Source: a virus. From it: a stretch of DNA of 29,413 nucleotides. The notes beneath the pieces are model-generated. The model was not told where the DNA came from, did no database searches, and saw only the letters and a list, made by a program, of their open reading frames with translations. Of the stretch, positions 6,025 to 8,207 are shown piece by piece. Location of the stretch: the IMG/VR virus record IMGVR_UViG_3300027676_000004, positions 1 to 29,413 of that record. One strand, 5' to 3'. Position 1 is the first letter of the stretch. Each line of letters opens with the position of its first letter. Made by a program: the position numbers and the translations under genes.

Positions 6025-6453
6025 TTAAGGTCCAGCGCTAGACGAGAGTCTAGTGCTTAGAAGGTTACGAATGCCTGTATCTTGGGTGATCGCTTGCGCT
6101 TGAGCAAACTTCACCGCCAGAGTGGCGTTTTGGGCTAACATGCCGGAATAGTAAGGATCGCGATAAATCAAGTTCATGGAATATCCATCTTGATTTATGT
6201 GCGTGATCGCTTGCTTGCCTAATACAGTGTTGTAATAGACATCGCCGCCGTTTTTGGACGTTCCACGTGAAACAGGCGCCTCAGAACTGGTTAGTATTCG
6301 GATATTGAATACGTTTCCATACTCGGAAGGCAGCGCTGACGTGTTGGTAGGATAGTCCCATTGGTTCTTGAATCCAGATCCAACAAGGCTATCAAAATCC
6401 GTTTGCAGCTCAGTCGAACTCAACATGAAATATGATGAGCGGACTGGGCCAGT
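6025..6453 (-). CDS. major capsid protein, N4-gp56 type, exon 2 (C-terminal 142 residues)
   Basis: Starts at the ACT codon right after the proposed intron. Read from there it begins TGPVRSSYFMLSSTELQTDF and continues with segments such as WDYPTNTSALPSEYGNVFNI and EAPVSRGTSKNGGDVYYNTV, typical of the C-terminal half of N4-gp56-family capsid proteins. Joined to exon 1 it gives RFG|TGPVR, which is the continuous family motif as I remember it, and a 323-residue product of normal length. Taken alone, the first ATG of this piece would be at 6456 inside the intron end, with no good ribosome binding site. So it is best read as a spliced exon and not as a separate gene. Confidence 0.75.
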   Translation of the reverse strand, partial: TGPVRSSYFMLSSTELQTDFDSLVGSGFKNQWDYPTNTSALPSEYGNVFNIRILTSSEAPVSRGTSKNGGDVYYNTVLGKQAITHINQDGYSMNLIYRDPYYSGMLAQNATLAVKFAQAQAITQDTGIRNLLSTRLSSSAGP

Positions 6454-6970
6454 CAATCTGTTACTTTTGTGACCAACCTTCCGGAATTTCCAGATAATTG
6501 GCGGGGACTTTCTCTACTTATCCCTCTCTATGTTTCCATAGAGTTCAGAGCACCGCATCTCTCTTTCTGTTATTAGACCAAATTTGCAATTAGATCCATA
6601 TTCAGAAGAAGAGTCTTCTCGCTTGCTACGTTCACGGTCCGATTTTTCAATCGGTTCCGCCTTGTTGTCGCCGTCAATATCCTTATCTCTCCACAAAGAA
6701 CCGCCAGAATTGCGGAATTGCCGCGCTTCTATCATCTTTCGGTCCACTTCGTTGAGATCTAAGTTATCATGCATAAATTGCCTAGTGCGCCAAGTACCAT
6801 TGTGTTTGTCTAGTACCGCCATACAGAGGTCGCAGAATTTATAAAATTCGCAAGCCTCTATCACCACGGTAAATTCGCCTCTATCGCACTGACATTTATC
6901 ACATGTTAAATTCATATTACGCTGCGAGTTCCAAGTCAATCAGAGAAGATTTTACTTCGGCACACATTTT
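6454..6970 (-). ncRNA. probable group I self-splicing intron in the capsid gene (517 nt)
   Basis: The exon 1 end ATTCGGT can pair with GCCGAA nine bases into the intron: UUCGGU/GCCGAA, six pairs with the U.G wobble exactly at the 5' splice site, which is the hallmark of a group I P1 helix. The intron's last base is G, also as required. Removing 6454-6970 restores the capsid frame and motif. Near the 3' end there is a perfect hairpin CTCTATG-GAAA-CATAGAG followed by AAGTAGAGAAAGTCC, resembling P8 and the S element, and a further hairpin CTGGAAATTCCGG like P9. I could not assign P3 and P7 by eye, so the group I class is well supported at the ends but not proven in the core. Confidence 0.68.
6514..6915 (-). 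CDS. intron-encoded zinc-ribbon protein of unknown function
   Basis: 133 residues from the ATG at 6915; a TTG at 6939 would add eight. It starts MNLTCDKCQCDRGEF and shows C5-x-x-C8, C10, C22 and C28-x-x-C31, suggesting one or two bound zinc ions. After this come a charged helix (DLNEVDRKMIEARQF) and a Ser/Glu/Arg-rich tail. Its start lies one base after the TAA that ends capsid reading in unspliced message (TAATATG), so it could be translated by re-initiation from unspliced RNA. Position suggests a homing endonuclease or maturase remnant, but no HNH, GIY-YIG or LAGLIDADG motif is clear. The 3' part overlaps the putative ribozyme core. Confidence 0.45.
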   Translation of the reverse strand: MNLTCDKCQCDRGEFTVVIEACEFYKFCDLCMAVLDKHNGTWRTRQFMHDNLDLNEVDRKMIEARQFRNSGGSLWRDKDIDGDNKAEPIEKSDRERSKREDSSSEYGSNCKFGLITEREMRCSELYGNIERDK

Positions 6971-7513
6971 ACCGAATCTGTCCATACCTTCGATACCAGA
7001 CATGAACTTGTACGCATTGTTCGTGTCTAATGTCGTGGCGACTAAGCTAAAATCAGATACCCCAAGGTTAGTTGGGTTATCTCCATTGCTTCCGCCTCCA
7101 GCATAAATTTGGCTAGCAGCAGAAAGAATGTAATCGCGGAGGATCAAATCCTCTGCTTGACGCATCGCAACTGCAAGCCTCTCGGAGACCCAGGCGAGAA
7201 CGCCCTCTTGGTCTTGCAAGATAACTTGTTCGTTGATGATACAGCCAGTTCCAAAAAACGCCATCTGCGCGTCTATAATATCGCGCTGTGGCACCTGCGC
7301 TGGGGGATCAATCCCCGAGTTCCCCAACTGAACTGTTGGAGGAACCAACGCTTTTGGTCTCATGAAACGAGCTGTCGTCCCGGCGTTAGGTGGCATCGAC
7401 ATCTTGTCGCAGACCAAAATGTAGTTCATGGTAGGCGTCGGCACATACAACATCGCAGGAGCTAAGCTCTGCAAGATGAGAGGGCCGAGATTACCGGTCG
7501 TAGTAATTGACAT
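6971..7513 (-). CDS. major capsid protein, N4-gp56 type, exon 1 (N-terminal 181 residues)
   Basis: Start at ATG 7513, preceded by GAGGTAATC. Family features: MSITTTGNLGPLILQSL at the N-terminus, then NYILVCDKMSMPPNAGTTAR and FMRPKALVPPTVQLG, which is the conserved beginning of N4-gp56-like capsid proteins with the HK97 fold. The middle has QDQEGVLAWVSERLAVAMRQ and AEDLILRDYIL. Without splicing, reading would continue into the intron and stop at 6917 after 198 residues, making a truncated capsid protein. It lies downstream of the scaffold-like gene, as usual, though a rightward cassette is inserted between them. Confidence 0.8.
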
Positions 7514-7952: not shown

Positions 7953-8143
7953 TGGACTGGTTTCAAGTTTTAACAATCGCGGGTTCAACAATAGGCGCCT
8001 GCTGGGTGATGCACAAAGAAAACATGAAAATGCATCAGGAAAGCGCCAAAGAAATGAAGGATTTCCACGGGAGGCTTTGCGTACTAGAGGAAAGATACCT
8101 TCAAATGATGCAGCGCTTTCTAGAGAAAAAAGAGGGACAATAG
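7952..8143 (+). CDS. MDW-family small membrane/coiled-coil protein (copy 2)
   Basis: 63 residues, beginning MDWFQVLTIAGSTIGACWVM and ending with a charged helix that contains EMKDFHGRLCVLEERYLQMM. It is a tandem paralogue of the preceding gene and is translationally coupled to it by a one-base overlap. A single membrane span at residues about 5-22 and a coiled-coil tail are predicted by eye. Its last codons and TAG stop lie inside the 5' acceptor and D region of the tRNA gene, so the mRNA and tRNA share sequence. Confidence 0.65.
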   Translation: MDWFQVLTIAGSTIGACWVMHKENMKMHQESAKEMKDFHGRLCVLEERYLQMMQRFLEKKEGQ

Positions 8144-8207
8144 CTCAGTTGGTCAGAGCAGCGGACTCATAACCCGTTTGTCGCGGGTTCAACTCCCGCT
8201 TGTCCCA
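8134..8207 (+). tRNA. tRNA with anticodon CAU (Met elongator or Ile2)
   Basis: Full cloverleaf: acceptor GGGACAA (8134-8140) with TTGTCCC (8200-8206), D stem GCTC/GAGC, anticodon loop CTCATAA with CAU at 8168-8170, T stem GCGGG/CCCGC with loop TTCAACT, discriminator A at 8207. The anticodon stem has one A-C mismatch next to the loop. The G1-C72 pair argues against a bacterial initiator tRNA, so it should be elongator Met or, if lysidine-modified, Ile for AUA codons. CCA is not encoded. Confidence 0.93.

Follow-up and report, generated by a model that had tools for sequence, protein, structure and literature searches.

Group I introns of phages are usually regarded as neutral parasites, in which an early stop codon merely halts the ribosome. 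In capsid genes, such introns are already known from mycobacteriophage LittleE and from the major head gene of lactococcal phage Tuc2009, and those of the LittleE capsid gene and the BAKA minor tail gene have been spliced experimentally; a degron is not described in the accessible portion of this paper (PMC3706429). Jug phages harbor many group I introns of about 206 nt per genome, located in essential genes, and the accessible portion of their description likewise contains no account of a capsid degron (PMC12363816). In yeast HAC1, the tail that results from translation into the unspliced intron is a C-terminal degron acting as a fail-safe (PMC5114014). A search of the open-access PMC literature yielded no account of a prokaryotic or phage intron that encodes an ssrA-like degron. 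The DNA analysed here, referred to as the window, is a stretch of 29,413 nucleotides (IMG/VR record IMGVR_UViG_3300027676_000004), and its insert of 517 nt is probably a self-splicing group I-type capsid intron with an in-frame degron directed against protein fragments made from unspliced mRNA.

The major capsid gene on the minus strand of the window (7513..6025) is split by this insert (6970..6454). Exon 1 (6971..7513, residues 1–181, MSITTT...MDRFG) ends with GAC AGA TTC GGT, its last base being 6971, and exon 2 (6025..6453) restarts at 6453 with ACT GGC CCA GTC CGC (TGPVR). The closest 80 of 224 capsid relatives in IMG/VR were compared. In 65 of these best 80, which align to exon 1 without gaps at 88–95% identity, the two exon halves are joined gaplessly at an empty site. 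Inserts of 312–827 nt occupy the same junction in 13 of the best 80, three of which (L040, L041, L056) have another insert 34 residues downstream; the other two of the 80 are one sequence with a 3-nt difference and one that is truncated. Excision up to a terminal G at 6454 restores the frame of the intact relatives. Together with the gapless empty sites, this confirms an earlier note on this DNA, which had placed the insert inside an N4-like major capsid gene. The same note had considered an intron in such a gene to be rare, which does not agree with the finding that about 16% of close relatives carry one, with up to five per gene (the maximum, in L248), nor with the spliced capsid-gene introns reported for LittleE and Tuc2009 (PMC3706429). 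A target-site duplication was considered in view of ACAGATT at both edges of the insert, but it does not serve as the main explanation: this repeat is absent from other copies, and the sites differ.

The protein of an intact relative matches PHROG 1357, 'major head protein' (E=1.2e-13); searches of Pfam and INPHARED with the capsid protein gave no match. A model of the capsid protein was computed with AlphaFold from 28 diverse aligned sequences (pLDDT 64.6, moderate confidence), and Foldseek comparison of this model with the PDB returned capsid chains of phage N4 as top matches (E=1.4e-11). The previously proposed N4-gp56 label is therefore correct, and the product of the interrupted gene is an N4-gp56-type major capsid protein with a predicted N4-type capsid fold. 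Rfam also detects a tRNA gene with anticodon CAU in the window (8134–8207, +; 70 bits), whereas the structural genes lie on the other strand.

Sequence comparison supports the insert as a group I-type intron with P1 including a U-G pair, P3, P4–P6, P7, P8 and a terminal G, all elements lying on the minus strand. The exon side of P1 (UUCGGU, 6971..6976), with the U-G pair at the 5' splice site, faces the internal guide sequence GCCGAA (6956..6961); in a search across the family, P1 is present in 133 of 133 capsid copies with a mean of 7.1 bp, the U-G pair being a condition of this search. P3 (UCUUCUC, 6943..6949, and GAGAAGA, 6614..6620) was read from the sequence and displays two-sided changes across copies, and P4 (CUUG, 6932..6935, and CAAG, 6661..6664), read in the same way, is covered by the structure count for the family given below. 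Pairs of the P6 domain (GCGG...CCGU, 6634..6660) covary in the family, as do those of P7, formed by G(U)AGCA with one bulged base (6624..6629) and UGCUC (6548..6552). Compared with the family-type GACUA/UAGUC, P7 of the window intron is exchanged to GAGCA/UGCUC by a set of compensating changes. The conserved 3' end (6454..6468) consists of AAAAGTAACAG followed by ATTG with the terminal G, and AAGTAACAG is invariant in an alignment of 38 short cores (A1), which spans about 190 positions and includes P3, P4, P5, P6, P7, P8 and two 3' hairpins. With the P3/P7 pseudoknot included, a fixed structure was scored on this alignment over 1546 cells and 41 pairs, with 500 shuffles as reference. In this count 97.8% of the 1546 cells are paired, and 26 of the 41 pairs display two-sided changes (259 cells). 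None of the 500 shuffles matches any measure of pairing or covariation, and pairing falls to 38–49% in controls with slid partners. By helix, the paired cells amount to 100% in P3, 99.5% in P7 and 98% in P8, all with two-sided changes, and to 100% in P4, 95.6% in P5 and 100% in P6, where five pairs are changed on both sides.

A covariance model derived from other copies (R1) detects the intron as its sole match in the window (E=2.6e-14); it matches 13 of 13 intron-carrying capsid loci and none of the intronless capsid genes. The Rfam group I model RF00028 matches neither the window intron, even at E<=10, nor the intact copy of 183 nt in L149, and it finds the introns of LittleE, BAKA and Tuc2009 weakly (27–43 bits). 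The earlier note had named the lack of a group I hit as grounds for dismissal. Since RF00028 is silent although the covarying structure is that of a group I intron, this test is too weak for the purpose. The P1 helix UUCGGU/GCCGAA with its U-G pair, the terminal G and the group I type proposed in that note hold, and P3 and P7, which it had left unassigned, can now be assigned with covariation. A group II intron (GTGTG near the 5' end of the insert) was considered as well and rejected, as there was no match to a group II model of Rfam and the P3/P7/P8 core covaries.

Scans for intron-internal motifs yielded about 228 different copies; most of them are located in this capsid gene, in which about 69 sites are occupied. 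Gene and frame could be fixed by two-sided homology for 143 of them: 133 lie at many positions in this capsid family and the other 10 mostly in the portal gene, a capsid share that is biased because, although the scans were not selected for genes, the assignment requires homologues in a locus set rich in capsid genes. The remaining 85 copies flank the capsid family (34), a P22-coat-like gene (31) or nothing recognised (20). In the record of a podovirus from Manatee Spring (MW202674), an intron of the family splits the annotated P22 coat gene; the portal-gene and P22-coat-type introns mostly stop early and have no tag. This is a large and previously uncatalogued family carried by environmental tailed phages. 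To judge from these sequences, the insert is one of the small group I introns that repeatedly entered head genes of tailed phages, mainly this capsid gene. In lake phages (L131, L164, L175, L182, L183, L218), copies lie at or just past the end of a P22-coat-like gene whose product ends with ...LVA; the intron may be situated between genes there. An isolated Desulfovibrio phage (OR395405) has an intron of the family where a reading frame with an intein ends; judging from its sequence, this frame resembles anaerobic ribonucleotide reductase. In the record of Desulfovibrio phage 7757 (L379:584-3861), the frame with its intein is followed by the family intron and then by a further ORF (MKCSICDSEARYPNGG...).

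Several copies contain reading frames of their own. In the window, an open frame of 133 aa with a Cys-rich start (MNLTCDKCQC) runs on through the core (6514..6915, minus strand); it has no match in Pfam or PHROG and is probably not a homing endonuclease. Many copies, among them L026, L027, L028, L040 and L070, have comparable mini-ORFs in a core loop behind GACAACAAGGGGCAAGATTATG; they are often rich in CxxC motifs and end at CAGCCTGA, and the one in L070 corresponds to a DUF551 protein (E=6e-5). Long copies (the intron of L038, and L076:5624-6139 on the minus strand) have an antisense ORF of LAGLIDADG type (AYLAGIIDGEGSLL).

Exon 1 remains open across the splice site. Its translation continues into the intron as GKMCAEVKSSLIDLELAA (...KSSLIDLELAA; tails are given here up to the stop codon), terminated by TAA at 6919–6917 in the P5 loop. 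This in-frame tail (6970–6917, minus strand; KMCAEVKSSLIDLELAA) is itself a conserved feature, which the earlier note overlooked, and it would provide the truncated protein with an ssrA-type C terminus, LAA or a close variant. Other family tails with a stop in the P5 loop are LELLAA, LECLAA, LELLTAA, LELLEAA and LEFLIAA, and those with a stop at the P6/P7 boundary include AEQYALAA, AEQFALAA, AGEYLHAA and QAKAA. LAA is the most frequent ending, and AGEYLCAA is also found among the tails.

The relation of tail and frame was evaluated for the 143 copies with two-sided homology, with upstream flanks cut at the preceding intron; the 31 P22-coat-type copies were left out, because some appear at the very end of the gene or just after it. 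Where the frame is open, so that exon 1 reads the tail, 80 of 108 tails end with AA, as opposed to 1 of 35 where an earlier stop closes the frame (p=1e-14). AA endings amount to 4/214 in out-of-frame readings of the same introns, 4/107 in the next in-frame segment and 5.5% in ORFs of at least 150 aa from the same loci. P5-loop tails mostly have GCN GCN as their last two codons; each of the four third bases occurs there, and each of the three stop codons is used as well. Independent pairs with one open and one closed member were taken from a tree of the 3' domain that was computed with the tail left out. This tree yields 10 such pairs with good support, in which the tag differs in the same direction 7.9 times on average and in the opposite direction 0.0 times (p=0.008). 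The copies are related to one another, a limitation that is met by this comparison of pairs and by counting sites. About a quarter of the open tails end otherwise (VA, AFS, AIS, TC), and a few long tails are tagless. Tails that end in P6 make use of core RNA, in which GCAGCGTGA encodes AA and the stop, and therefore the tag could be partly structural there. Separately, a few introns with early stops in P1 have tag-like tails (GYLQAA, QYAA, ALAA), namely L260 and L298 (in a gene with homologue L271, 400 aa), L232 and L283.

The position of an intron in the gene is related to its frame as well. Past the first 39 capsid residues, the frame is kept at 52 of 61 sites (1/3 expected, p=8e-17), as against 0 of 8 sites within the first 39 residues, where the product is a tiny peptide. 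The open sites are distributed over insertion phases 0 (n=33), 2 (n=13) and 1 (n=6), and the distance from the 5' splice site to the core offsets the phase, with 30/33 nt in phase 0, 31/28 nt in phase 2 and 32/29 nt in phase 1. A frame that is kept late and dropped early is the pattern that would be expected of a device for removing capsid fragments.

C-terminal tags of the ssrA type (LAA or xAA) are recognised by ClpXP-type proteases, as established for E. coli. From the data presented here, we infer that the intron splices, that some unspliced mRNA is translated, that a protease recognises the tail and that the arrangement is of benefit. The spliced mRNA would give rise to the intact capsid protein. 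On unspliced mRNA, a ribosome would keep the frame of exon 1 while passing P1, P3 and P4, reach the P5 loop (P6 in other copies) and stop after a short tail ending with LAA or similar. Such a tail would mimic the bacterial ssrA/tmRNA degradation tag, by which a ClpXP-type protease probably destroys the truncated capsid fragment that would otherwise be left without splicing and may poison assembly. The earlier note had supposed that splicing would limit the supply of capsid protein; the in-frame tail suggests that removal of what failed splicing leaves behind is under selection. We further lean towards the broader proposition that introns in phage virion genes carry a host-matched mimic of the tmRNA tag as a fail-safe, which would be independent of phase, dropped for short fragments and evolved repeatedly.

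The tail could alternatively belong to an ordinary group I intron, its in-frame stop freeing the ribozyme to fold and its LAA being an accident of conserved RNA. In-frame stops are indeed known in bacterial group I introns, where they are interpreted as ribosome stops (PMC3984707), and the tail overlaps P3, P4 and P5, with the final AA and stop of P6-type copies being core RNA. However, stops could come far earlier, as in the closed copies and in Tuc2009 (FPAWS), and ribosomes that pass P3 and P4 should impede folding rather than allow it. Moreover, LAA in the P5 loop is almost restricted to the translated frame (80/108 versus 1/35) while its codons vary synonymously, and we regard an accident of this kind as unlikely.

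Conservation of the frame would also fit a useful short capsid isoform with the tail as a part of its function. Some phages do have capsid proteins with alternative C termini. However, insertion occurs in about 69 bins of position and phase in the capsid, so that the fragments differ in length and share the tail alone, and an isoform of this type appears highly improbable. The same low probability applies to a remnant that does not splice and divides the capsid into two working polypeptides. Splicing of the intron is a prediction here, and a TTG start codon is located just upstream of exon 2, both of which would be compatible with two polypeptides; but all copies retain a covarying ribozyme core, P1 is kept in 133 of 133 capsid copies, the junctions are exactly in frame and a single capsid gene may have up to five inserts. 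Under the preferred reading, that of a degron in the unspliced message, the translated part of the intron is apparently selected as protein.

Of 84,980 prokaryote species scanned, three gave genuine matches to the intron, all of them MAGs (L248, L250, L254), named Parachlamydia, Chlamydiia and 'Acidobacteria', the last being placed in the phylum of the Chlamydiia bin. Because all three genuine carriers among prokaryote assemblies are Chlamydiota bins, this data suggests that the tailed phages with these introns infect environmental Chlamydiota. The tmRNA tags of the three MAGs end with LMAA, LVAI and FLQAA, and sixteen other tmRNA tags of Chlamydiota all end with AA (e.g. GEYLQAA, FYLEAA). Endings within the phylum include YLQAA, FLQAA, LEAA and ALAA, and the intron tails AGEYLHAA and AGEYLCAA are close to GEYLQAA. 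The likely link to Chlamydiota would mean that this phylum has tailed phages.

If true, the proposed device would explain in a simple way why introns can be tolerated in the most abundant and assembly-critical protein of a virus. As Rfam misses the family, split phage capsid genes are probably mis-annotated in metagenomes. The window intron shares with those of LittleE, BAKA and Tuc2009 (JF937101, JF937090 and NC_002703) its group I type, the location in a virion gene, the U at the 5' splice site and the terminal G, and LittleE has in addition an antisense LAGLIDADG-type ORF as in L038 and L076. These introns differ from the family of the window intron in being found, if weakly, by RF00028. 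The model R1 gives no match in LittleE, and the introns of LittleE and BAKA are seemingly unrelated to this family. Read in frame from exon 1, the LittleE intron (L388:315-875) gives VATAAA and the BAKA intron (L389, around 800-900) DDLAAAAA. These Ala endings are possibly due to chance, because both tails are encoded within a GC-rich, palindromic hairpin; if they are not, the device arose more than once. Tuc2009 differs in its early stop (FPAWS) and has no tag. Jug phages, likened here by description, are gut phages whose introns were found with subtype models (PMC12363816).

With tmRNA (ssrA) tagging, the window intron shares a C-terminal ...LAA or YLxAA on incomplete proteins; its tag is encoded by an intron in the mRNA itself and would require neither trans-translation nor a stalled ribosome. 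The degron, if it acts as proposed, would be a prokaryotic counterpart of that in the yeast HAC1 intron, as in both cases a short C-terminal tail stems from an unspliced intron. The HAC1 system is eukaryotic, with Ire1-dependent splicing and recognition by Duh1, and has no sequence relation to the present one, in which a phage ribozyme is combined with a bacterial ssrA-like tail.
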